A DNA stretch of 64,000 nucleotides, from positions 248,001-312,000 of the forward strand of contig JAJYYK010000001.1 of NCBI GenBank assembly GCA_021801025.1. Direction: 5' to 3'. Below, in pieces: positions 18,579 through 30,820 of the stretch; position 1 is the first letter of the stretch, and each line of letters opens with the position of its first letter. The translations under genes were made by a program, and so were the position numbers. Under the pieces are notes generated by a model. The model searched no databases, was not told the origin of the DNA, and saw only the letters and a list, made by a program, of their open reading frames with translations. The stretch is from Pseudomonadota bacterium (GTDB taxonomy: Bacteria > Pseudomonadota > Gammaproteobacteria > Burkholderiales > Sulfuriferulaceae).

Positions 18579-18839
18579 ATGGTGATGCAAAAAGTGTTAA
18601 GGCGTTTAAAATCGCCGATGAGTTTGGCCCTGCTGTTGGCGGTAGCGGGTTGTGGCACCAAGGGTGCTTTATTTCTTCCAAAGCCCGTTCAGCCCCAATC
18701 AACCCAGGTGCCGGTAAGCCAGATGCCGACAAGTCAAGCACCGGAACCCCAAACGGATGTGAGTCCAACTCCGGATAATACCGAAAATCCAAACCAGTTG
18801 CTCAATCTTGCAACACCCACACCAGTGAGTTCACAATGA
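18579..18839 (+). CDS. lptM: LptM-like small lipoprotein
   Basis: 86 residues with a lipoprotein signal ending LLLAVAGC at residues ~18-25, directly followed by GTKGALFLP, the conserved start of mature LptM (formerly YifL). LptM helps LptD reach its correct disulfide state. After this the protein is Pro/Ser/Thr/Gln-rich and unstructured. Its stop overlaps the lysA start (ATGA), the arrangement seen in many proteobacteria. Confidence 0.85.
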   Translation: MVMQKVLRRLKSPMSLALLLAVAGCGTKGALFLPKPVQPQSTQVPVSQMPTSQAPEPQTDVSPTPDNTENPNQLLNLATPTPVSSQ

Positions 18840-20071
18840 GTTTTGCTACATCCCTGTTGCCTTTTGATGCTGACACCTTAACACTGATTGCGGACCGTTG
18901 GGATACCCCTTGCTATGTTTATGATGCACGGACGCTCACGGACAATTACTTGCGTTTTGAGCAGGCGCTGACCAATCAACCGCACCAATTATGTTACGCA
19001 GTCAAGGCTAACCCTTCGTTGGCCATTTTACAACTGTTTGCCCGTTTGGGTGCAGGCTTTGACGTGGTCTCCGGTGGAGAATTGCAACGGGTGGTGGCGG
19101 CAGGCGGCGACCCGAACAAGGTCGTGTTCTCCGGTGTGGGTAAACAGACTGACGAAATTGCCCTGGCGCTGTCTTTGGGAATTCATTGCTTTAATGTGGA
19201 ATCCGAATCTGAGCTGTACCGGATTAACCGCATTGCGGGTGAGCAGGGGCAGCATGCGCCGGTTAGCCTGCGTGTGAACCCGGATGTGGATGCCAAAACG
19301 CACCCTTATATTTCGACCGGCCTCAAGTCGAACAAATTCGGCGTGGCGCACGATGACGCTTTGCGCCTGTACCAGCTGGCTGCCAGCTTGCCGCACTTGG
19401 TGTTGCGAGGAATTGATTGCCACATTGGTTCTCAACTGACCGAAATCGCGCCCTTTGTTGATGCGCTGGATCGGGTATTGAGTCTGGTGGATGCTTTGGC
19501 GGAATATGGGATTGTTTTGCAACACATTGATTTGGGTGGAGGCCTCGGTATACGCTACCACGATGAAACCCCACCGCATGTGGAGGCCTATATCGCTGCG
19601 CTGCGCGAAAGGCTGGCTGGACGGGGGCTGACCCTGTTGCTCGAACCGGGGCGTGCGCTGGTCGGCAACGCTGGCGTACTGCTCACCCGGGTGGAATACC
19701 TCAAACCGGGCGCAGAAAAACAGTTTGCCGTCGTGGATGCCGCGATGAACGACTTGATGCGCCCTGCCTTGTATGGGGCCTACCATGATATTGTTGCTGT
19801 GCACCCGCGCGATGAGGCGCCGCAACAATGGGAAATTGTCGGGCCGGTGTGCGAAACCGGCGATTTTCTGGGCCATGATCGGGCTCTGGCGCTGGCAGAA
19901 GGGGATTTGCTGGCGATTAAATCGGCAGGGGCTTACGGCATGTCGATGAGCTCACAGTATAACACCCGCCCGCGCGCAGCGGAAGTTCTGGTGCTGGCGG
20001 GCCAACCGGTATTGATCCGGCAGCGGGAAAGCATCGCCTCGCTGTTCGAAAATGAACGGCTGCCGGATTGA
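18836..20071 (+). CDS. lysA: Diaminopimelate decarboxylase
   Basis: Last step of lysine synthesis: meso-diaminopimelate to lysine. 411 residues of the PLP-dependent fold III type. The PLP lysine is in YAVKANPSL (~residue 62), with the HIGSQ motif at ~200, the GGGLGIRY phosphate-binding loop, LEPGR at ~275 and the partner-subunit motif CETGDF at ~345. All key residues are intact. It begins within the lptM stop codon. Confidence 0.97.
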   Translation: MSFATSLLPFDADTLTLIADRWDTPCYVYDARTLTDNYLRFEQALTNQPHQLCYAVKANPSLAILQLFARLGAGFDVVSGGELQRVVAAGGDPNKVVFSGVGKQTDEIALALSLGIHCFNVESESELYRINRIAGEQGQHAPVSLRVNPDVDAKTHPYISTGLKSNKFGVAHDDALRLYQLAASLPHLVLRGIDCHIGSQLTEIAPFVDALDRVLSLVDALAEYGIVLQHIDLGGGLGIRYHDETPPHVEAYIAALRERLAGRGLTLLLEPGRALVGNAGVLLTRVEYLKPGAEKQFAVVDAAMNDLMRPALYGAYHDIVAVHPRDEAPQQWEIVGPVCETGDFLGHDRALALAEGDLLAIKSAGAYGMSMSSQYNTRPRAAEVLVLAGQPVLIRQRESIASLFENERLPD

Positions 20072-20673
20072 TTTACATTCGGCGGGTTAGGCCCCATGGC
20101 GCTTTGATGGCTCACAGGCATTTATTTTGTATGGGTTATATTCGTTCGGGATGTGTGTTGAATTATCCAAAGCTGTTCAAAAAACGCCTTCGGGTTGATT
20201 CAGGAACCCGATTGAGAAAAATTACGCCATTGGTTTGGGATGATGAGCAGGACCCTCTCGCCTCGCGAATCGCCGCTATCGGCTTTGTTGTGAACTGGTC
20301 GCTCCGTTTGTTGCTGGCTGATTATGGGAAGTGCGATACATGCCCATGTCGCAACCCTTCTGCCTTTGCAGCATATTTCGCCGGTCGACTTTCCATAATC
20401 ACTGACTTTGCATAATCGGCCTTATGTAAAGCTTTACATAAGGCCGAATAACCGCCCTTCAGAGATGAGATTCAACCAGCATGCTTCCCGGAGAATGGGG
20501 CTGCATAGCCAATTTCAAACCATGGCGATTTAGACTCGGCACAACCAGAAAGAGCTTGATTGCAACTTCAGAATGCATATAGCCGCTTTTTATTGGCCAT
20601 TGAAAAACCCATGAATGGGTGCTATATTAGAAAAGTTGAATGTTTTGGCAAGAGATTGTTACCTGTCAGTGAA
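20072..20673 (+). other. 602-base region between lysA and the efflux operon
   Basis: A 115-codon frame starting at 20068 shows no recognisable domain and overlaps the lysA end, so it is not called. The region holds an inverted pair of GATTATGG-type sequences (20320-20335 and 20386-20400), a third copy at 20400-20415 and a 32-bp perfect palindrome (20416-20447). The part from 20450 to 20673 should carry the promoter of the efflux operon; no clear -35/-10 pair was chosen. Confidence 0.5.
20320..20447. repeat. Inverted GATTATGnnAAGT repeats next to a 32-bp perfect palindrome
   Basis: GATTATGGGAAGTGCG (20320-20335, plus) faces GATTATGGAAAGTCG (20386-20400, minus) and GATTATGCAAAGTCAGTG (20400-20417, minus). 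Immediately after comes a palindrome with 16-base arms centred between 20431 and 20432 (arm starting TCGGCCTTATG). Sixteen bases of the third copy recur exactly at 57250-57265. The arrangement looks like the end of a mobile element or a recombination site. Confidence 0.55.
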
Positions 20674-21069
20674 ATGATGAAATTGTGGCTTACATGGGGA
20701 TTGGTGGTGTGGTTAGCGTTGATGCAAGGCATCGCGCCGCTGTTGCACGCCCATGTTCATGATTTGTCTGTTCCTGGCAAGATACATATTCAGGGCCTGG
20801 ACGAGGCCATGAATCATTTGCCTGGCAAATCAGTGGTGTCCCAGATTCAAACGTATTCGACGGATGATTCTATCAGTATGGAATCGCTGGGAAAGAATGA
20901 GCATCAAATCAATTTAGCTGCTGTGTGCTTATTGGTTGCAGTGATCTTGCTGGCATTGGCCCGGTTGCCCTGCCTGATCCGCATCACCCCCGTTTATGTC
21001 ATCGATGCGTTAAGCGCACCGCCTTACACCCTCCCCTGGTCGCTCGCACCACCTACTCTCCTGCATTAA
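20674..21069 (+). CDS. Small membrane protein ahead of the RND efflux genes
   Basis: 131 residues with a hydrophobic N-terminal segment (LWLTWGLVVWLALMQGIAPLL, ~3-23) that is either a signal peptide or an anchor. HAHVHD follows it, then a polar periplasmic-looking part, a second hydrophobic segment (~88-108) and a Pro-rich tail. The His cluster just outside the membrane could bind metal. I know of similar short proteins ahead of czc/cus-type operons but have no family name. Start set at the MMKLW ATG; a longer frame exists upstream. Confidence 0.6.
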   Translation: MMKLWLTWGLVVWLALMQGIAPLLHAHVHDLSVPGKIHIQGLDEAMNHLPGKSVVSQIQTYSTDDSISMESLGKNEHQINLAAVCLLVAVILLALARLPCLIRITPVYVIDALSAPPYTLPWSLAPPTLLH

Positions 21070-21079
21070 AAATTTCATG

Positions 21080-21111
21080 CCTGCTGTCTGCTGACAGCAG
21101 GGGATTTTTTT
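21080..21111 (+). terminator. Hairpin plus T-run ahead of the RND adaptor gene
   Basis: Nine-base perfect stem CCTGCTGTC / GACAGCAGG (21080-21088 and 21093-21101) with a TGCT loop, followed by GGATTTTTTT. It lies between the small membrane protein and the adaptor gene, 17 bases before the adaptor ATG. It is therefore either an intrinsic terminator with read-through or an attenuator. Confidence 0.75.
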
Positions 21112-21127
21112 CATGTGGGAGAAAACC

Positions 21128-22207
21128 ATGCAACGTATTATTTTTGCTGTCGCTCTGTGCGCAGCGACCACGGCTCATGCTGTCGATCAATTGACATTTA
21201 CGGCCAGGCAACTACAGTCTTTAGGCGTCATCACTACCCCGATTGCCAGTACGCAATCGCAAACCAGCTTGAACTATCCTGCAACAGTGGACATTCCAGC
21301 GAATCAAGTGCGTATTGTGGCTGCGCCGATGACGGGAATGGTGAGCCGGGTTTGGGTGACGGCAAACACATCTGTGAAAGTGGGGCAACCATTAGCCACG
21401 CTGTTAAGCCCCGAACTGGCACAGGCTCAAGGTGGTTTGGTGCAAGCAGCCGCGCAGGCGCAGCTGGCGCAAATGCAATTGCAGCGCGATGATCAATTGC
21501 TGGCGGATGGCATTATTGCCGCTTCACGTCAACAAACCACACGGGCAAATTATTTATCGGCACAAGCCATGTTGACCCAGCATCGTCAATCTCTGCGTAT
21601 GTTGGGGGTGCCTGCGATCACTGTTGCACAGATGGAACATGGTATTGCGCACAGCGCGGAATTGCAGCTGTCTGCCCCGATTTCTGGTGTGGTACTGGAA
21701 GCCAGTGTTACTGCCGGACAGCGAGTTGATCCGACCACTGCTTTGTTTAAAATCGCACAAATGCGTCCGTTATGGTTGGTGATTCAGGTGCCCGGCCCGG
21801 CGGCGGCTCATATTAAAGTGAATGACAGTGTGAGTTTGGTTGGGCGTGCTGCGACAGGTCGCGTGTTGTCAATCGCACAAAACACACAAGCCTCGCAAAC
21901 GGTTGCCGTGCGTGCGGAAATCAATGGGGATTTAGATGGCTTGTTCAGTGGGCAAGCAGTTGAAGCCAAAATACGTAGTGCTGTAAATATGGCTTGGCAG
22001 GCCCCTGTCAGCGCAATAGTCTACCAACAAAATAATCCTTATATCTTTGTGCGTGATGCGCATGGGTTCCATCCCGTCGCGGTGCAAGTGTTGGCACAAA
22101 CTGGCGCGATGGCAATCATCGCAGGCAAGTTGTCGCCCGCTGACATGATCGCCACACAAGGCGTCGCCCAGATTAAAGCAGTCTGGTCTGGCGCAGGGGG
22201 GGTATAA
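21128..22207 (+). CDS. RND efflux periplasmic adaptor (CusB/CzcB type)
   Basis: 359 residues. Signal peptide cleaved after AHA at residue ~20. A biotinyl-lipoyl-like half (AAPMTGMVSRVWVTANTSVKVGQPLATLLSPEL), an alpha-helical hairpin rich in Ala and Gln, and the second half-motif (LSAPISGVVLEASVTAGQRV) follow in the usual membrane-fusion-protein order, then beta-barrel domains. It links the inner-membrane pump to the outer-membrane channel. It lacks the long Met- or His-rich N-terminal extension of some CusB and CzcB proteins. GGGAG precedes the start. The pump gene begins three bases after its stop. Confidence 0.9.
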   Translation: MQRIIFAVALCAATTAHAVDQLTFTARQLQSLGVITTPIASTQSQTSLNYPATVDIPANQVRIVAAPMTGMVSRVWVTANTSVKVGQPLATLLSPELAQAQGGLVQAAAQAQLAQMQLQRDDQLLADGIIAASRQQTTRANYLSAQAMLTQHRQSLRMLGVPAITVAQMEHGIAHSAELQLSAPISGVVLEASVTAGQRVDPTTALFKIAQMRPLWLVIQVPGPAAAHIKVNDSVSLVGRAATGRVLSIAQNTQASQTVAVRAEINGDLDGLFSGQAVEAKIRSAVNMAWQAPVSAIVYQQNNPYIFVRDAHGFHPVAVQVLAQTGAMAIIAGKLSPADMIATQGVAQIKAVWSGAGGV

Positions 22208-22209
22208 CC

Positions 22210-25200
22210 ATGCTGGATAAACTCGTTGCTTTTTCGCTTTCCAAGCGGTTGTTGATATTGATATTGACAGCTATTTTGATCGGTACAGGCTGGATGGCTT
22301 TCCAGCAATTGCCTATTGATGCGTTTCCTGATGTATCAAGCACGCAAGTTAAGCTGATTATGAAAGCGCCAGGCATGACCCCCGAAGAAGTCGAGGCACG
22401 TATTGTTGCACCGATAGAAACGGAATTGCTGGGCATCCCCAGGCAACAAATGTTGCGCTCCATTTCCAAATATGCCCTGGCTGACATCACGATTGATTTT
22501 GCTGAGGGGACAGATATTTACTGGGCGCGGCAGCAGGTGGCAGAACGCCTGGCGAATGCGCAGGGCAGTTTGCCGCCGGGCAGTTCGGGCGGATTGGCAC
22601 CCATCACCACGCCTTTGGGCGAGATGTTTATGTTTACGGTTGAAGGTGGTGGCTTGTCACTTGAGCAACGACGCTCATTGCTGGATTGGGTTATCCGTCC
22701 GCAATTACGCACGTTAGCCGGTGTGGCGGATGTGAATACGTTGGGCGGCATGGTGCGCACGTTTGAAATCGTGCCCAATAATGTACAACTTGCTGCGCGT
22801 GGTGTGAAGTTAAGTGATTTGCAGCATGCGCTGGAGATGAATAATCGTAACGATGGCGCTGGGCGGTTACGCGCTGGTGAGGAAGTTCTGGTAGTGCGTG
22901 TTGAAGGCGCAATTAAAACGCTGGATGACGTGCGTGCCATTGTCGTCGCGAATCGGGCCGGCATTCCTGTGCGGATCGGTGATGTGGCTGAGGTACAAAT
23001 CGGCAGTCTGACGCGGTATGGCGCAGTGACCAAAGACGGCCGTGGCGAGGCAGTAGAAGGTCTGGTGCTGGGTCTCAAAGGCGCGAATGCCCGGCAGGTG
23101 GTTGCCGCCGTACAGGACAAGCTGGCTGAAATCGATAAAACCTTGCCCGCAGGTGTGCACACCAGGGCATTCTATAACCGAGGTGGTTTGGTTGATCGTG
23201 CAGTGGGGACCGTATCCGAAGCGTTGGCCGAAGCGATTGTGTTAGTGGTGATATTGCTGGTGCTGTTCCTGGGCAATCTGCGGGCAGCAGTACTGGTTGC
23301 GCTGGTATTGCCATTGGCAGCCTTGTTTACCTTTATTCTCATGCGCCAATTTGGTATGTCGGCGAATCTCATGAGTCTGGGTGGGTTGGCCATCGCAATT
23401 GGTATGCTGGTCGATGCTGCAGTGGTGGTGGTAGAAAATATTGTCACCCATCTTGCTCATGATAAAACCAGTGAAAAATTACATTTGATTTATCGCGCAG
23501 TCGGGGAGGTCATTACCCCTGTCGCGTCAGGCGTGTTGATCATCATCATCGTGTTTTTTCCGTTACTGACGTTGCAAGGCCTGGAAGGTAAGTTATTTAT
23601 TCCCGTTGCATTGACCATCGTGTTTGCTTTGGCGGGTTCGTTGTTGCTGTCGTTGACGGTCGTGCCCGTTTTGGCATCCTGGCTACTCAAACAGGGCGCA
23701 CATTCTGATCCCTGGTTGGTGCGCAAAGCGATGGCGATTTATGAGCCTGTTTTGGCGTGGGGTCTGGCACACGCGCGTACTGTGGTGATTGCAGCAGTGC
23801 TTGGTTTGTTGGCGACAGGTGGGGTTTATACGTTGATTGGTAAAACTTTCATGCCTGTGATGGATGAGGGGGATGTGATTTTGCAGTTGGAAAAGTTGCC
23901 CTCTATCGGCCTGGAAGATTCAGTCAAGCTGGATTTGCATATACAACAAGCGCTGATGCGTGTCCCTGAAGTCAAAGGGGTGGTCGCACGGACAGGGTCG
24001 GATGAATTAGGTCTGGATCCTATGGGGTTGAATCAAACGGATACTTTCCTCGTGCTCAAACCCCGTGAGCAATGGCGCAAGCCCGATAAAGCCTGGTTAA
24101 TCGACCAGTTACGTACAGTGATGCAAGATTTTCCCGGGGTGACCATTTCGTTTACGCAGCCGATAGAAATGCGCGTGTCAGAAATGCTCACAGGCGTACG
24201 CGGTGATTTGGCGGTAAAAATATTTGGTACCGATCTGGACCGGTTAAATCAGTTAGCCAGTCAAGTTGAAGGGGTGCTTAAAAGCATACCAGGGGCTGAA
24301 GACGTGATCACGGTGAAAAACGACGGGGTGCAGTTTTTGCAAATCAAAGTGGATCGATTGGCGGCAGGACGATTTGGACTGAACATTGATGACATCCAGA
24401 ATGATCTGCGTGCGCAAATTGAAGGTAAGCCGTTGGGTGTGGTGCTGGAAGGCACGCGCCGTACCCCGCTTGTATTGCGTGGCGATGAAACAGTGCGCAA
24501 TTCGCCTGAGCAATTCGCGGCCATGCGCATCACTTTGCCAGACGGACAAAGCATTCCTTTATCAGAAATTGCGCAATTACAGCGTGTGGATGGCCCTGTC
24601 AAAGTCGACAGAGAAAACGCGCGGCGTTATGTCGTGGTGCAAGCCAATGTCCGTGGCCGTGATTTGGTGGGGTTTGTCGATGCAGCGAAACAGGCCGTGG
24701 CGAAGAAAGTGCCGTTGCCTGCGGCGTATAACATTGTTTGGGGCGGGCAATTTGAAAACCAGCAACGGGCAGCCAAGCGCTTGGGCATTGTCGTGCCCAT
24801 TGCGCTGGTGATGATATTTTTGCTGCTCTATGCCACGTTTAATTCATTGCGACAGTCCTTGCTGGTGCTGGCTAATGTGCCGTTCGCACTCATCGGTGGC
24901 GTGTTCGCATTGTGGTTGTCAGGAGAATATATGTCTGTGCCTGCGTCGGTCGGTTTTATTGCCCTGTTGGGGATTGCTGTCTTGAATGGGGTGGTGCTGG
25001 TCAGTTATTTCAATCAGCTCATCGAGACAGGCATGGATATCGGGCAAGTCGTGGTCGAAGGTGCGAAACGCCGTCTGCGCCCTGTACTGATGACTGCAAT
25101 GATTGCCGCATTTGGCCTGTTGCCCCTGGTTTTTGCAAGTGGCCCCGGTTCCGAAATCCAGAAACCATTAGCGATTGTAGTCATCGGTGGCCTGGTCACC

Positions 25201-25278
25201 TCAACCTTGCTGACTTTAATTTTACTTCCTGTTTTATACCGCCGTTTTGGCTTTGCTAAAACAGAGTTGGAGGCTTAA
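22210..25278 (+). CDS. Heavy-metal RND efflux pump (CusA/CzcA family)
   Basis: 1022 residues, normal for the family. First membrane helix at ~12-30, large periplasmic loops at ~35-335 and ~555-855, and two six-helix bundles. The helix-4 motif GGLAIAIGMLVDAAVVVVEN places it in the heavy-metal (HME) group and, by the AIAIGMLVDAA form, closer to CusA-like members than to CzcA with DFG. The metal is not certain. It pumps cation from periplasm or cytoplasm to the outside using the proton gradient. It ends directly at the outer-membrane gene. Confidence 0.93.
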   Translation: MLDKLVAFSLSKRLLILILTAILIGTGWMAFQQLPIDAFPDVSSTQVKLIMKAPGMTPEEVEARIVAPIETELLGIPRQQMLRSISKYALADITIDFAEGTDIYWARQQVAERLANAQGSLPPGSSGGLAPITTPLGEMFMFTVEGGGLSLEQRRSLLDWVIRPQLRTLAGVADVNTLGGMVRTFEIVPNNVQLAARGVKLSDLQHALEMNNRNDGAGRLRAGEEVLVVRVEGAIKTLDDVRAIVVANRAGIPVRIGDVAEVQIGSLTRYGAVTKDGRGEAVEGLVLGLKGANARQVVAAVQDKLAEIDKTLPAGVHTRAFYNRGGLVDRAVGTVSEALAEAIVLVVILLVLFLGNLRAAVLVALVLPLAALFTFILMRQFGMSANLMSLGGLAIAIGMLVDAAVVVVENIVTHLAHDKTSEKLHLIYRAVGEVITPVASGVLIIIIVFFPLLTLQGLEGKLFIPVALTIVFALAGSLLLSLTVVPVLASWLLKQGAHSDPWLVRKAMAIYEPVLAWGLAHARTVVIAAVLGLLATGGVYTLIGKTFMPVMDEGDVILQLEKLPSIGLEDSVKLDLHIQQALMRVPEVKGVVARTGSDELGLDPMGLNQTDTFLVLKPREQWRKPDKAWLIDQLRTVMQDFPGVTISFTQPIEMRVSEMLTGVRGDLAVKIFGTDLDRLNQLASQVEGVLKSIPGAEDVITVKNDGVQFLQIKVDRLAAGRFGLNIDDIQNDLRAQIEGKPLGVVLEGTRRTPLVLRGDETVRNSPEQFAAMRITLPDGQSIPLSEIAQLQRVDGPVKVDRENARRYVVVQANVRGRDLVGFVDAAKQAVAKKVPLPAAYNIVWGGQFENQQRAAKRLGIVVPIALVMIFLLLYATFNSLRQSLLVLANVPFALIGGVFALWLSGEYMSVPASVGFIALLGIAVLNGVVLVSYFNQLIETGMDIGQVVVEGAKRRLRPVLMTAMIAAFGLLPLVFASGPGSEIQKPLAIVVIGGLVTSTLLTLILLPVLYRRFGFAKTELEA

Positions 25279-26535
25279 ATGAAAAAATTAATCTACCTGC
25301 TGGTGATAATGAGTTTGCCAGCCTATGCCGGCAACTATTCGAGTCCGCCTGATTTACCGGCCATAGATGCTGTGAGTCTGGCCTTAAACAGCACGCCGAC
25401 GGTGCGCGCCGCCAAGGCGAATTTGGGCGTAGAAGTTGCCAACAATGACCGTTTGCGCGCGGGGAATTATGAAACAGCCATTCTTTTAAACACCCAGCAA
25501 CGTCACACCATAGCGCCTGAACCGGATTACCGCTATACCGAATGGGATGTGGCGCTGGAACGTACGTTGCGTTTGCCGAATAAAGCAAGACTGGATGCGC
25601 AATTGGGTGAGCAAGGCATCAATCAATCGCATTATGTGCTGGGTGATGCTTTGCACGAGTCTGGGCGTATGCTATTGACCAGCTGGTTTAACTGGGTGCG
25701 TGAGTTTTATCAGGTTCGGCAATGGCAGTCGCATGTCGAAGGGCTTAAAAGCCAATTGGATGCAGTGAATCGGCGCGTGCGGGCTGGCGATGCGGCCAGG
25801 CTCGATCAACTTCAGGCCAAAGCGGCATTGGCCATTGCGCAGGCACAATTTGCCGATGCCGAATTACGCTTGTCAACCGCCAAAAATGAACTAAATCGGC
25901 GCTTTCCGGCGATCAGGTTACCCGCCGAACCTATTTTGCCGCAACCCGAGTTAGTGGCCGAACCACTGGAAGTGTGGCAACAGCGCAGTATGGCACACAA
26001 CCATGAATTAGCCATTGCGCACGGCGAAACCCTGCGATACCGAACGATGCTGGCGCGTAGTGAGGCCGATAAAACGCCGGATCCAAGCGTTGGCGTACGC
26101 TTTGCCAATGAACGGGGCGGTGAAGAGAAAATCATCGGTGTATACCTTTCTATCCCGTTTGCTGGGGGCGCCCGCCTTGCTGTGGCGCGCATGGCGGCGG
26201 CAAATCAGCTTGTTGCCAGCGAACTTGAAGCGGGTGTGCGTACCAAAGTTGAAACCGACACGGCCAACACATGGCTCGCTACGCAATCGGCCTATGGTGC
26301 ATGGCAAGCCAGTGCCGCCGCCAGCGCTGCCATGCATCAACATGCCGATCTGGTGACGCGCGCCTACCAGCTGGGAGAAAGCGGACTCACCGATGTGCTC
26401 AACGCCCGCCGCCTGGCACAAGAAGCCGACTTGAACGCCATCAATAGCCGTCTGGCTGCTGCACAAGCACGTTATCGGCTTCTGCTGGACACGCATGCAC
26501 TGTGGCCGATAGATGCCGATGAGGAGGGGGCGTGA
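25279..26535 (+). CDS. TolC-family outer-membrane efflux channel (CusC/CzcC type)
   Basis: 418 residues. Signal peptide ending AYA at ~17; then two OEP repeats of long Ala/Gln/Leu-rich helices (VSLALNSTPTVRAAKANLG; the second copy begins near residue 225, HNHELAIAHGETLRYR) around short beta segments. It forms the outer-membrane exit duct. TTGGAGG lies before its ATG. Gene order is adaptor-pump-channel, differing from czcCBA, where the channel gene comes first. Confidence 0.9.
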   Translation: MKKLIYLLVIMSLPAYAGNYSSPPDLPAIDAVSLALNSTPTVRAAKANLGVEVANNDRLRAGNYETAILLNTQQRHTIAPEPDYRYTEWDVALERTLRLPNKARLDAQLGEQGINQSHYVLGDALHESGRMLLTSWFNWVREFYQVRQWQSHVEGLKSQLDAVNRRVRAGDAARLDQLQAKAALAIAQAQFADAELRLSTAKNELNRRFPAIRLPAEPILPQPELVAEPLEVWQQRSMAHNHELAIAHGETLRYRTMLARSEADKTPDPSVGVRFANERGGEEKIIGVYLSIPFAGGARLAVARMAAANQLVASELEAGVRTKVETDTANTWLATQSAYGAWQASAAASAAMHQHADLVTRAYQLGESGLTDVLNARRLAQEADLNAINSRLAAAQARYRLLLDTHALWPIDADEEGA

Positions 26536-26890
26536 TGCGATAGATCCGCGTACCGGGCGCAGTACTGTATTCGGTGCGCAGGTAAAGACATACTCACAGC
26601 ACAGTGGAAACTGTCGACGGCGTCTGTCATGGCGCTGTCGCTGGAGGCGCGTGCGTCACTGTCATGATCAACTCATTTGCGAAAAACATATAATCTTGTT
26701 TTAATCAGTTTAAATTCAAATATCTATATCAGTTTATCGGTCGCCTGACAGATTGTGTTGTTTAATTACAACAAAATTCAGGTTAACTTTTATTAAAAAG
26801 ACTTTGTTGTCTTGTTACATTCGCGTACAATTAGCGACGTGCTGTTGGAATTTTCTGGTGGCCGGTCTTTTGAACTCAGGGAGGATGTGT
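26536..26890 (+). other. 355-base region upstream of the Cyc2-like gene
   Basis: AT-rich from about 26680. It contains an inverted repeat TGTTGT-ttaatt-ACAACA (26756-26773) and a promoter-like pair at 26804-26831. In the first ~150 bases I see nothing. A long in-frame extension of the Cyc2-like gene back to 26753 has no ribosome site and is not used. Confidence 0.5.
26804..26831 (+). promoter_or_regulatory. Candidate sigma-70-type promoter of the Cyc2-like gene
   Basis: TTGTTG (26804-26809), 16-base spacer, TACAAT (26826-26831). Predicted transcript start near 26838 gives a leader of about 50 bases before the GGGAGG ribosome site. The -10 is five of six to consensus, the -35 is weak. Confidence 0.45.
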
Positions 26891-28309
26891 ATGAATATCT
26901 TGAATTGGAACAAGAATTTCAATCGGTTGCGCGAGGCTGTTTCGACTCAAGCGCCTGTTGATCTGTGGCGCACAGCTGTGCAAAAGGTAACCTGGCAAGG
27001 GGTTTCGGTGGCATTGCTGGCGACGGTCAGTACCGTGGCATCAATGGATGCAGCCGCTGTGCCACTGTTTGCACGGCAGACCGGTCAAAACTGTCAGGCC
27101 TGTCATGCGGGTGGGCATTTCCCTGAATTGACGCCTTATGGTCGTATGTTCAAGTTAACCGGCTATACTTTGGGGCAACGGACCTCACTGCCCATCGCGG
27201 CGATGGCGGTGTTCACATCCACCTCAGTGAATGGTGGCACAGGGACCATGGCCAATGGTCAACCAACTTTTAATACCGCCAGCCTGTTCGCCGGTGGCAA
27301 GTTAACCGACAGCATCGGTATGCTGGCGCAATACACCTACAACAATTATCAAGATGGCACACAGTCAGGTCACATGGGATCTGATAACACCGATATTCGT
27401 TATGCGAAACATATTATCAATGACCAGACGGATCTGATTTTTGGCTTTGACGCCAACAACAACCCTGGGGTAGAAGATGTGTGGAACAGTTCTGGTGCGT
27501 GGGGTTATAACGTCGTACCAGGCAGTACCGGTACGGGAGCAAACCAGTTGCCTCTTCTTGCGGGAGGGTTGGCGCAGCAAGCAGTGGGTGCTGGCGCATA
27601 CCTGTACTGGAATAAAACCCTGTATGCGGAATTGTCAGGCTATCGTACTGGCGATGGGGTATTCTCTTTCCTGACACAACAACAAGGCGGTCAGGGTGCT
27701 TACCTTCAGGGTACAAACCCTTACGTCCGTTTGGCGTTGACGCATGACTGGGGCACCAGCAATGCGATGATCGGTTACACCTATTTTGATGCCAATGTGT
27801 ATGAGCAACCAGCGGGACTCTATAGTGGTCCTGGTACCTATGGCAACACGGGTGGCCCTGTCGATGAACACCGCGACAACATGGTGGATTTCCAGTACCA
27901 GTATCTGCTGGATCCGAATGTCTTCACTTTTGATGCAGCGTACACCAATGAGCAGATTTTTTACGGTTCTGGTGGGCTCGGCGGAGCTGGCGGTACTTCA
28001 GACAGCATCAATGAATTTCAGGCCAAAGCAAACTATACCTACCAAGCCCATTATGGGGTCTCGCTGAGCTATTTTAATGTTACTAATACGGACAACAATG
28101 GTCTGAATGCAGCGGCTACTTGCGGCGGCTCAGGACCTGCAGGCGTCGGGCAGTGCGGTACGGAAGGATGGACCCCGGATATATATTTCATGCCAGTACA
28201 AAATGTCCGGATTGGTCTTCAGTACACCCTCTTTAACCGTGCTTACGGCACGACGGTGAATGCCACGGCGAATAACACCACGATGCTTTACGCCTGGACG
28301 GTATTTTAA
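26891..28309 (+). CDS. Cyc2-like fused monohaem cytochrome and outer-membrane porin
   Basis: 472 residues. A long polar N-terminal stretch, a hydrophobic signal core at ~37-52, and mature start near AAAVPLFARQTG. One haem motif CQACH at residues 68-72, followed by GGHFPELTPYGRMFKLTGYT. This string (FARQTG-x2-CxxCH then P-x-L-T-P-x-G-R-x-F-K) is the cytochrome-domain signature I know from Cyc2 fused cytochrome-porins. The remaining ~370 residues alternate polar and aromatic residues with Gly/Asn-rich turns and end in Trp-Thr-Val-Phe, as in outer-membrane beta barrels. Start chosen at MNILNW, six bases after GGGAGG. A dihaem cytochrome gene follows. Related non-iron cytochrome-porins exist, so the electron donor is inferred. 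Confidence 0.82.
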   Translation: MNILNWNKNFNRLREAVSTQAPVDLWRTAVQKVTWQGVSVALLATVSTVASMDAAAVPLFARQTGQNCQACHAGGHFPELTPYGRMFKLTGYTLGQRTSLPIAAMAVFTSTSVNGGTGTMANGQPTFNTASLFAGGKLTDSIGMLAQYTYNNYQDGTQSGHMGSDNTDIRYAKHIINDQTDLIFGFDANNNPGVEDVWNSSGAWGYNVVPGSTGTGANQLPLLAGGLAQQAVGAGAYLYWNKTLYAELSGYRTGDGVFSFLTQQQGGQGAYLQGTNPYVRLALTHDWGTSNAMIGYTYFDANVYEQPAGLYSGPGTYGNTGGPVDEHRDNMVDFQYQYLLDPNVFTFDAAYTNEQIFYGSGGLGGAGGTSDSINEFQAKANYTYQAHYGVSLSYFNVTNTDNNGLNAAATCGGSGPAGVGQCGTEGWTPDIYFMPVQNVRIGLQYTLFNRAYGTTVNATANNTTMLYAWTVF

Positions 28310-28316
28310 TGACCTT

Positions 28317-28351
28317 TCGGGTCACGTGACTGATACGATAACGTGACCCGA
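28317..28351 (+). other. Hairpin between the Cyc2-like and c4 genes
   Basis: Eleven-base perfect arms TCGGGTCACGT (28317-28327) and ACGTGACCCGA (28341-28351) with a 13-base loop, starting eight bases after the Cyc2-like stop. There is no T-run, so it is more likely an mRNA processing or stability element than a terminator. Confidence 0.65.
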
Positions 28352-28378
28352 CTTTAAACTGAATTGGGAGAAATGACG

Positions 28379-29032
28379 ATGAACAAAGCAATCCTTTCAG
28401 CCGTGTTGGGGGCTGCGCTACTGGCGACAGGGTGTAGCAACCTGCAATCCAACACAGCATCTATCCGCGATTTGAACGACCCCAGCGTATCCGGCCATGT
28501 ACTCGCGGAACAAGTGTGCAGTATGTGTCACGGCGTGGGCGGCAACTCAATCAACCCGACTTTTCCGCGTTTGGCAGGGCAGCAACCCGCATATCTGGTT
28601 GAGCAGTTAAAAGCCTTTCGTTCGCATGACCGCAGCGACGTGGCTGGCTATCAATACATGTGGGGCATTGCCCGCAGTCTGACCAACAAACAGATTGATG
28701 AGTTGGCGCAATATTACAAGGGGCAAATCCCGGTTCCCGGTCAGGCGAAAAACGCTGGCCTGGTCGCGCAGGGTGATGCGATTTTCCATAATGGTGTCGA
28801 GGCGACCGGCGTACCGGCCTGTGCTTCGTGTCATGGTCCTCAAGGCCACGGACATGATGGTTTCCCACGCCTTGCCTCACAACATCAGGATTACCTCCTG
28901 AAACAACTGAGTGTGTTTAAACACACCAATGACCGTTATACGGGCCTGGGTACGATGATGTCTCCAGTGGCGTATAACTTGTCAGGGGATCAGGCACGGG
29001 AAGTGGCCGCTTACCTGTCTTCCCAGCCTTGA
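28379..29032 (+). CDS. Dihaem cytochrome c4-type lipoprotein
   Basis: 217 residues. Lipoprotein signal with LLATGC at ~14-19. Two class I cytochrome c domains: haem motif CSMCH at ~47-51 with FPRLAGQQPAYLVEQL after it, and CASCH at ~146-150 with FPRLASQHQDYLLKQL after it. The axial Met residues are likely those in YMWGIAR and GTMMSPVA. This tandem c4 layout matches Cyc1 of Acidithiobacillus and c4 oxidase donors. GGGAG lies eight bases before this ATG. It would take electrons in the periplasm, here held on a membrane by lipid. Transcribed with the Cyc2-like gene, 69 bases downstream. Confidence 0.9.
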   Translation: MNKAILSAVLGAALLATGCSNLQSNTASIRDLNDPSVSGHVLAEQVCSMCHGVGGNSINPTFPRLAGQQPAYLVEQLKAFRSHDRSDVAGYQYMWGIARSLTNKQIDELAQYYKGQIPVPGQAKNAGLVAQGDAIFHNGVEATGVPACASCHGPQGHGHDGFPRLASQHQDYLLKQLSVFKHTNDRYTGLGTMMSPVAYNLSGDQAREVAAYLSSQP

Positions 29033-29101
29033 TTGGGTAGGGGTTTCGCCAGCACAGGTGATTTGTTGGTGATGTTGGTGTAACCCCGCTGGTTTTATCT
29101 G

Positions 29102-29140
29102 AATGCGCTGTGCAAGGAAAGCTTGCGCAGCGCATTTTTT
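29102..29140 (+). terminator. Intrinsic terminator after the c4 gene
   Basis: Fifteen-base stem (29102-29116 with 29122-29136, one G-T pair), loop GAAAG, and a run of T to 29140. It closes the Cyc2-like/c4 transcript 70 bases after the c4 stop. Confidence 0.9.
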
Positions 29141-29161
29141 ATGCTATTGCTTTCCTGCATT

Positions 29162-29208
29162 AAAGTAACATATACTTTCTCACAATGACCATTTATGATA
29201 AAGTATAT
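29162..29208. promoter_or_regulatory. Palindromic operator sites upstream of hipBA
   Basis: AAAGTA-acata-TACTTT (29162-29178) and ATATACTTT ... AAAGTATAT (29170-29178 and 29200-29208) overlap and end four bases before the hipB ATG. HipB-type antitoxins bind such AT-rich palindromes to repress their own operon. Confidence 0.65.
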
Positions 29209-29211
29209 ATC

Positions 29212-29589
29212 ATGTCTAAATCATCCTTGGCACTCACTTCATTCCCACCTGAGGCAGCCAGTTCCCTGATCACACTTGGAGAGCAGCTTGCCTTGGCTCG
29301 TCTCCGCCGGAACGAATCCCAGCGGCAATGGGCGATACGAATTGGGGTATCCGTGCCAACATTGATTCGTATGGAGCGTGGAGATCCAAGTGTCAGTATC
29401 GGTGTTTACACCACGGCGCTATGGTTACTTGGGTTATCCAGTGCCTTGGGCGAATTGGCCAACCCGGTCAAGGATTTGGGGGCATTGGAAGCCGTTATTC
29501 GGGAAACTAACCGTATTCGCGCCACACGAAAACAGGCATCTAAAACGGCTCAAATGGGTAAAGTGGCTAAAAACCATGCAAAACCATAA
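29212..29589 (+). CDS. hipB: HipB-like helix-turn-helix antitoxin
   Basis: 125 residues. An XRE-type helix-turn-helix at ~23-80 (LGEQLALARLRRNESQRQWAIRIGVSVPTLIRMERGDPSVSIGVY is split over its helices), followed by a basic tail rich in Lys. It neutralises HipA and represses the pair. Start set at MSKSSL; an ATG nine codons earlier lies inside the operator. It overlaps hipA by 14 bases. Confidence 0.85.
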   Translation: MSKSSLALTSFPPEAASSLITLGEQLALARLRRNESQRQWAIRIGVSVPTLIRMERGDPSVSIGVYTTALWLLGLSSALGELANPVKDLGALEAVIRETNRIRATRKQASKTAQMGKVAKNHAKP

Positions 29590-30820
29590 CCCAATACAGG
29601 GCAATACACTTTACCTTTGGTATCTGGGGCATCCTGTTGCCCCTATCCTGGTGGGCGATCTGAATCTTGTGATGTCTGCGCGGGGCGTTTCGTTGAGATA
29701 TGATGCGGGCTGGTTGAATACTGGTTTTCCGTTGAGCGAAGACCTACCGCTGGTGGATATCGAGTTCTTTCCCCGGGAAAAAGACACAGCAGCTGGCGCG
29801 GTAGACGATGCCAGGCCGGACAGGTGGGGTGAAAAGATCATTCGTTTGCTTGATCGCCCGGCACGATTATCCATTTTGGAATTTCTGTATTACACGGGAG
29901 ATGATCGGTTTGGCGCATTGGGGGTTTCTACGTCCAGGGAAGTTTACCTTCCCCGTCATATTGGGCCATTGCCGCAGCTTTCCGATGTTGACGCCGTTCA
30001 CACGGTAGTGCGCAAAGTGATGGCAGGCGAACAGATCGGGGAACGCTGCAAACGATTGATTGCTCCAGGCGTAACCATGGGGGGCGCGCGGCCTAAAGCA
30101 CTGTTTCAATTAGATGGGGCTGAGTGGATATTGAAATTTGCAGAAGAAGAGATGTCTTCTGAGTCCTTGATTGAGCATGCTGCCATGACTTTGGCCGCGA
30201 AGGCGGAGATCAATGTGGCAGTTACCCGTCCGATCAAACTTGAGAAGGGTGTCGCTGTTGCCATTAAACGATTTGACCGGTTTAATAACAAGTTGCGGCG
30301 GCATGTGCTTTCCGCCAATGTGGCATTCAAGGCGGCTGGCGTGGAGATCAGCTATCCAAATTTGTCCTTGTTGCTCCGCCGCAAGGGTGTGGCGGAGGAC
30401 CAACTGTATACGAGCCAGATGCATGAATTATTTCGTCGATTGATTTTTAATATTCTTATCGACAATACTGATGATCATGAAAAAAACCATGTCTTACTAG
30501 TCACGGATTCTCAGCATTATGAGTTGGCACCAGCGTTTGATGTGCTGCCTGTGAGCCACTCACTCGGGTATCAGGCGATGGTGGTTGGCAAGCAAGGTGC
30601 AGAATCAACCATCGACAATGCGCTTTCGATGGCGACGGCTTACTGGCTTACACCCCAAGCCGCTGTGGATGAAGCGCGGAAAGTGGCGCGGGTTGTGGAC
30701 TCGTGGCAAAATCACTTCGCTGAAAAAGGGCTTGGCGCTGCGGTTCTGGACGCTTTGTCGACACATATTGACCGGCCATTTTTGCTGAAACAGCGCCAGG
30801 CACTGCTTCAACAGGCCTAA
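29576..30820 (+). CDS. hipA: HipA-type serine/threonine kinase toxin
   Basis: 414 residues. N-terminal HipA_N part (YLWYLGHPVAPILVGDL), the MGGARPKAL activation-loop segment at ~165, the catalytic loop FNILIDNTDDHEKNH near 300 and LAPAFDVLPV after it. The Asp in DNTDDH and Asp in FDV are the expected catalytic and metal-binding residues, so the kinase appears intact. In E. coli HipA phosphorylates glutamyl-tRNA synthetase and causes persistence; the target here is unknown. The start overlaps hipB. A longer frame upstream lies inside hipB and is discarded. Confidence 0.87.
   Translation: MQNHNPIQGNTLYLWYLGHPVAPILVGDLNLVMSARGVSLRYDAGWLNTGFPLSEDLPLVDIEFFPREKDTAAGAVDDARPDRWGEKIIRLLDRPARLSILEFLYYTGDDRFGALGVSTSREVYLPRHIGPLPQLSDVDAVHTVVRKVMAGEQIGERCKRLIAPGVTMGGARPKALFQLDGAEWILKFAEEEMSSESLIEHAAMTLAAKAEINVAVTRPIKLEKGVAVAIKRFDRFNNKLRRHVLSANVAFKAAGVEISYPNLSLLLRRKGVAEDQLYTSQMHELFRRLIFNILIDNTDDHEKNHVLLVTDSQHYELAPAFDVLPVSHSLGYQAMVVGKQGAESTIDNALSMATAYWLTPQAAVDEARKVARVVDSWQNHFAEKGLGAAVLDALSTHIDRPFLLKQRQALLQQA

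Follow-up and report, generated by a model that had tools for sequence, protein, structure and literature searches.

A cyc2 gene paired with a lipobox-bearing cytochrome c4 in a genome assigned to Sulfuriferula

In the rus operon of Acidithiobacillus ferrooxidans the genes are reported in the order cyc2-cyc1-cup-coxBACD-rus, with cyc2 first and the c4-type cyc1 second, and stand-alone cyc2 and cyc1 genes have also been reported in Acidithiobacillus (PMC10654088). In Ferrovum, a c4 gene is described directly 3' of a cyc2-like gene and a cbb3 oxidase has been proposed as the acceptor (PMC10879576). Closer to the genome considered here, four Sulfuriferula isolates (AH1, GW1, GW6 and HF6a) are reported to carry cyc1 together with a cluster 2 cyc2; all four, AH1 included, grow on Fe2+ in gradient tubes, and cyc2 is given for all four described species of the genus (PMC12285272). 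According to PMC10734462, the function of cluster 2 Cyc2 depends on supporting context.

Here we describe a cyc2-c4 pair in a 64,000-nucleotide stretch of DNA (the window; positions 248001 to 312000 of contig C2 in genome G000, 2.38 Mb) from a genome whose genus we infer to be Sulfuriferula. A search of that genome for a 16S gene gave no match. The pair is real and ordinary, and of a well-known type. It is not unusual, because cyc1 and cyc2 occur in the four Sulfuriferula isolates, Ferrovum has such a pair, and the genes occur on their own in Acidithiobacillus. As in the rus operon, a c4 gene comes after cyc2, and the c4 has its nearest structural relative in A. ferrooxidans (see below); the two differ in that the window pair has no cup, cox or rus genes (and so no rusticyanin) 3' of it, that the genome yields no rusticyanin match above 20 bits, and that the oxidase is of the aa3 type in the rus operon and of the cbb3 type in this genome. 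The arrangement is that of Ferrovum Cyc2-like/CytC-18, where the c4 gene likewise lies directly downstream of the cyc2-like gene; in Ferrovum strain JA12, by way of difference, two c-type cytochromes are predicted to be soluble (PMC4725956). Among the Sulfuriferula isolates, taken as congeneric, locus L060 (whose genome we take to be that of AH1) also has cyc2 followed by a lipobox c4. The window genome differs in having the pair twice, and PMC12285272, in the portion available, makes no mention of gene order or lipobox. Cluster 1 Cyc2 of Mariprofundus is a fused cytochrome-porin with the same signature as the window protein, in a separate clade. From its sequence, the window pair is probably a Sulfuriferula iron oxidase unit of the Cyc2 type.

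The Cyc2 protein and its relatives

The cyc2 gene (26891 to 28309, plus strand; hereafter copy A) encodes a fused monohaem cytochrome-porin of 472 amino acids, identified by open reading frame, motif and tree. It is preceded by a leader (26788 to 26890, plus strand) that is kept in copy A of a sister species and includes a ribosome-binding site, GGGAGG at 26879-26884, 6 nt 5' of the ATG. The Cyc2 family has been defined by AxPxFAR[Q/K][T/Y] ahead of CxxCH, with PxL after it (Keffer et al. 2021, PMC8406198); the window protein carries AVPLFARQT-GQN-CQACH-AGGHF-PEL (motif through CxxCH at 27056 to 27106, plus strand), with 3 residues between motif and CxxCH and 5 between CxxCH and PEL (5 and 4, respectively, are quoted in PMC8406198). 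The CxxCH (27092-27106, within AVPLFARQTGQNCQACHAGGHFPELTPYGRMFK) is the only one in the protein, which at 472 amino acids also exceeds the length of at least 365 that, with a haem-binding motif, serves to recognize Cyc2. In an alignment of 21 homologues, the window protein included, columns A56, P58, R62, Q63, T64, C68, C71, H72, P78 and L80 are invariant. The preliminary description of this DNA had proposed a Cyc2-like monohaem cytochrome-porin ending in Phe, and the signature, the single haem site and the C-terminus (MLYAWTVF) bear this out.

The C-terminal domain, a putative barrel, can be aligned along its full length with those of other Cyc2 proteins. A crude count of amphipathic segments gave 10 to 18 strands depending on threshold (14 at the first threshold; about 16 are expected for a Cyc2 barrel), and AlphaFold on five Cyc2 rows reached a pLDDT of 28. 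A profile of 21 Cyc2 rows had no match below E 0.6 in the PDB. Neither the window protein nor any of the 21 rows matched a Pfam family, and in NCBIfam the window protein was likewise without a match, other rows giving weak ones at best (E 0.015 for the strongest). A hydrophobic stretch, VSVALLATVSTVASMDAAA, precedes the Cyc2 motif in a long protein leader and may belong to an export signal. This leader runs for about 55 amino acids before VPLFARQT (26891-27055) and is found in both copies of both species; its length recalls the extended signal peptides of autotransporters.

For the Cyc2 tree, 110 rows were collected by motif pattern and 91 were kept after removal of 19 that were duplicates, near-duplicates or fragments; hits missed by the pattern, among them Ideonella and A. 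ferrooxidans plasmid hits, lie outside it, and the chromosomal Cyc2 of A. ferrooxidans and those of Ferrovum and Leptospirillum are not knowingly among its rows. Cyc2 proteins of the genus form one clade, inside a large clade that holds the Cyc2 of a rus-type cluster in genome G323 (both with support of 100, given as SH-aLRT from short searches in a quick tree). In that cluster (locus L189), a rusticyanin match of 137 bits (curated cut-off, 146.7) lies about 7 kb 3' of cyc2, with cox-like ORFs, read by eye, between them; its cyc2 had no visible dihaem ORF as a neighbour. A regular expression for COX1 found none in loci L084 to L160. Rows of family f241, read as Mariprofundus-like and used as the cluster 1 anchor, form a separate Cyc2 clade. 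With G323 and f241 as anchors, the window protein falls within Cyc2, in the clade of the rus-type protein and apart from Mariprofundus-like cluster 1 (support of 100), which supports the Cyc2 membership proposed in the preliminary description and agrees with the cluster 2 assignment of Sulfuriferula Cyc2 in PMC12285272.

A Cyc2 match was found in 14 of 18 same-genus genomes (own included), the four without it being 80, 64, 75 and 100% complete. The last of these (G017) is a 2.2-Mb genome listed as complete. Relatives had been suggested as a place to look for the same gene pair, and a dihaem c4 directly follows cyc2 on the same strand at 16/16 evaluable genus loci (the window plus 15), three contig-end pieces (G007:C33, G008:C22 and G008:C15) being left out of the count. 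Because it recurs at all these loci, and because the 21 homologues show little or no variation in the signature columns, the pair stands above chance. Outside the genus, Cyc2 matches occur in 9/43 same-order genomes; c4 adjoins cyc2 in five of these nine, and one of the remaining four (L064) has a one-haem cytochrome there. At wider range, homologues were found in 54/369 class genomes and 85/398 phylum genomes, with four matches in a single genome (G387). This wide spread, the lack of a match in G017 and the dependence of cluster 2 Cyc2 on its context count against the iron oxidase reading.

Some of this distribution bears on the electron donor. Homologues with 28 to 43% identity lie on nine plasmid records, including those of Paraburkholderia, Caballeronia, Ideonella and Methylocystis, in none of which do we know of iron oxidation. 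Such a spread would suit a Cyc2-family conduit of otherwise similar mechanism that naturally draws its electrons from something other than dissolved Fe(II), for instance a solid sulfide such as pyrrhotite, an electrode, manganese or an organic redox carrier, as would the reported growth of the Sulfuriferula isolates on pyrrhotite too (PMC12285272) and a reported response of Tenderia cyc2 to electrode potential. However, Fe2+ supports growth of each of the four isolates in PMC12285272, every one of which has cyc2, and the window genome has no MtoA-type decahaem candidate, in a search that matched two control genomes below cut-off. A donor other than dissolved Fe(II) is an unlikely reading, and an iron oxidase unit remains the one we prefer.

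The c4 partner and the electron chain

The partner gene (28379 to 29032, plus strand) encodes a 217-amino-acid dihaem cytochrome c4 with a lipobox. Its start is most likely the ATG at 28379, with TTGGGAGAA directly upstream; the ORF list begins at a TTG at 28364. The protein has two CxxCH sites (CSMCH, 28517-28531; CASCH, 28820-28834) and matches Pfam Cytochrom_C (E 1.1e-18). Its nearest solved structure, above other chains named cytochrome c4, is PDB 1h1o, cytochrome c-552 (E 6e-38), identified in PMC10879576 as A. ferrooxidans Cyc41. With its pair of c4-homologous class I haem domains it fits the description of a cytochrome c4. The N-terminus reads MNKAILSAVLGAALLATGC-SN and holds the lipobox LATGC (Cys codon, 28433-28435), which by sequence pattern marks a putative bacterial lipoprotein with a residue other than Asp at +2. 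The lipobox pattern is present in 16/16 genus c4 rows (the window and 15 others), with Ser, Asn, Thr or Ala at +2 and Asp in none. In Escherichia coli, the Lol rule is that a residue other than Asp at +2 predicts the outer membrane, and the c4 lipoprotein is accordingly predicted to be an outer-membrane one.

The preliminary description had named the partner a dihaem c4 lipoprotein, a designation that the 1h1o match, the Cytochrom_C match and the putative lipobox uphold, and had set it apart from a soluble Cyc1. Of that contrast, the lipobox of the window c4 stands; the solubility of Cyc1 is uncertain, a transmembrane segment having been predicted for it by one paper (PMC4725956), and the comparison is with rus Cyc1 as described, its sequence lying outside the lipobox check. 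Among five partner c4 proteins outside the genus, the lipobox was found by script in one (L066), its Cys was seen by eye in another (L063, missed by the script because the ORF start lies too far upstream), and three (L065, L070 and L076) are without it. A further c4 gene, on contig C16 (L078), precedes a resB-like ORF, and its product starts with an ordinary signal peptide, both as read by eye; in the c4 tree it and L070 fall outside the partner-c4 group (98/96). A literature search, with subscription papers mostly outside it, turned up no report of Cyc2 accompanied by a c4 lipoprotein.

The pair had been described as cut off from any oxidase, which is correct for the locus and incorrect for the genome: a COX1 match at C2:177386-178678 starts an operon, with ORFs for a one-haem and a two-haem protein, that we read as ccoNOP, a cbb3-type oxidase about 96 kb from the pair on the same contig. 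Three matches to the RuBisCO large subunit above cut-off (contigs C3, C2 and C10) and a HiPIP (contig C5) were also found. The only rusticyanin match, at 20 bits, lies inside a haem-site-bearing ORF of 490 amino acids that, on inspection by eye, we take for a nirK-type cytochrome fusion. The region around this ORF (G000:C6:85000-97622), where the cupredoxin match is weak, also has norB/norC-like ORFs, for possible partial denitrification, and contig C4 carries a 715-amino-acid ORF with five CxxCH sites (L079, 4694-6841).

Neighbouring genes, hairpins and the two copies

Upstream of the pair lies lysA (18836 to 20071, plus strand), split off from cyc2 here by a block (20072 to 26787, plus strand) with a CzcB/CzcA/OMF-type RND metal efflux operon (21113-26535), whose efflux protein is of the CusA/CzcA family (1094 bits). 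At 6/15 fetched genus loci lysA adjoins cyc2 directly on its 5' side (L052, L054, L057, L061, L073 and L074, the last on a contig that starts inside lysA); it was not found there at eight of the 15, and L062 was not scored because its contig starts inside cyc2. The block is absent at the sister locus, where homology extends to the last base of lysA (20071) and restarts at 26788; the efflux operon is therefore an extra block in the window. Downstream lie a hipBA-type pair (29185 to 30820, plus strand; listed as 29185-29589 and 29378-30820) and a gene for a pyridine nucleotide-disulphide oxidoreductase. In the sister (L052, G004:C52), compared over window positions 29160-30810, both hipBA ends are kept and the counterpart of 29367-30554 is missing, so the hipBA pair is probably ancestral and was lost there. 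The preliminary description had placed the pair between a metal efflux operon and hipBA. The placement is right; a functional tie is not borne out, the sister lacking the efflux block and having hipBA reduced, and both sets of neighbours look incidental. Membership of the efflux operon or hipBA in the cyc2-c4 unit was rejected on the same comparison.

Between cyc2 and c4 lies an intercistronic hairpin of 11 pairs (28317 to 28351, plus strand). Its stem, 28317-28327 with 28341-28351, is present in all four A and B loci of the two species (44/44 cells paired), and 5/11 pairs are changed on both sides, as many as in 6/500 shuffles. The covariation score was 0.56 against 0.30 in shuffles (0/500 as high) and 0.18 or less when the stem was slid; further pair types numbered 6, not above shuffles (7.0). 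These statistics come from a small set of four related sequences, and the stem was picked from folds of those same sequences. Hairpins of different sequence lie between the genes in L056, L057, L061 and L074, and not clearly in L054 and L073. The hairpin may give unequal protein amounts by stabilizing or trimming mRNA. After c4, a hairpin of 16 pairs with a T run, like an intrinsic terminator (29101 to 29137, plus strand), agrees with the terminator previously ascribed to that gene; it is the longest of five terminator-like sites in the 2.9 kb (3.0 ± 1.7 in shuffles).

A second cyc2-c4 pair (copy B) lies at about C12:98745-100872, and the sister genome (G004) likewise has two. In the c4 tree, the window with L052 and L051 with L075 form separate pairs (98/93 and 99/94), and the pair was therefore duplicated before the species split; in the Cyc2 tree the grouping of the two A copies is not resolved. 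Multiple copies are not peculiar to these two species: another genome (G007) has at least two pairs (L053 and L074), which stand together in the Cyc2 tree, apart from the window and sister copies.

The two copies differ in divergence between the window genome and its sister. Amino acid identity is 80.3% for cyc2-A (dN 0.140, dS 0.98) and 93.2% for cyc2-B (dN 0.038, dS 0.40), and 94.9% for each of c4-A and c4-B (dS 0.35 and 0.64, respectively). Neighbouring genes have dS of 0.23 to 0.55 at the A locus (n = 4) and 0.24 to 0.50 at the B locus (n = 11, non-cytochrome), so that c4-B lies slightly higher than the genes around it. Along cyc2-A, taken in windows of 50 codons, dS was 0.42 and 0.65 over the leader and haem region, against 0.7 to 1.8 in the barrel, where one window was saturated. 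Over 26891-28309 compared with L052, synonymous divergence in the barrel is about two- to fourfold that of the neighbours, and the leader and c4-A lie in the neighbours' range. Since the raised synonymous divergence is concentrated in the barrel, it suggests replacement by a diverged allele of the surface protein. dN/dS is 0.05 to 0.14 for both copies of both genes, a range in keeping with retention of the copy B pair under purifying selection.

The higher dN and dS of cyc2-A could also mean that copy A is minor or decaying and that copy B on C12 does the work. Yet the reading frame, motif, ribosome-binding site and partner of copy A are all intact, its dN/dS is about 0.14, c4-A is as conserved as c4-B, and copy A sits at the lysA locus common to other members of the genus; we consider a minor role for copy A quite unlikely. 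Decay as such was rejected, with frame, motif and partner intact and dN/dS low.

A possible mechanism and its meaning

If the pair is an iron oxidase unit, Cyc2 would be an outer-membrane protein whose haem domain plugs the barrel and which takes electrons from dissolved Fe(II) outside the cell. The c4, lipidated and retained in the outer membrane (+2 being Ser, not Asp), would face the periplasm, and for that reason a tether of about 27 residues would hold its first haem under the barrel. Electrons would pass to soluble carriers encoded elsewhere, either the soluble c4 beside resB (C16) or the HiPIP (C5), and these would feed the cbb3 oxidase or, by uphill transfer, CO2 fixation. The tether geometry would fit either direction of flow, and the norB/C-like and nirK-like ORFs, as read by eye, suggest a flexible respiration; the pair might then run in reverse, with c4 and Cyc2 passing electrons out of the cell, either onto extracellular Fe(III) or as a way of shedding an excess. 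But a high potential is reported for A. ferrooxidans Cyc2 (560 mV at pH 4.8; PMC5371394), which suits uptake, and no Cyc2 reductase was found in the literature search, so that reverse flow appears highly improbable and uptake from Fe(II) is the direction we favour.

The tethered c4 is the most interesting feature of the pair. To our knowledge, the route of electrons across the periplasm after Cyc2 is not settled outside Acidithiobacillus, and a c4 lipoprotein beside Cyc2, kept across the genus loci examined, would give a simple answer, namely that the electrons are first received in the periplasm by a protein anchored to the outer membrane. New here are the covarying hairpin between cyc2 and c4 and the unusually diverged barrel of copy A; a fast-changing barrel set against a slow-changing c4 would separate surface selection from electron-transfer constraint. 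We tentatively suggest, as a view that may well need revision, that iron oxidation in the genus could be a fixed outer-membrane device, in which Cyc2 and a lipid-tethered c4 docking under its barrel take the place of a freely diffusing rusticyanin/Cyc1 step. The lineage would then have parallel channels A and B, the surface barrel of copy A swapped by recombination, the inner c4 almost constant and the ratio of subunits set by the conserved hairpin.
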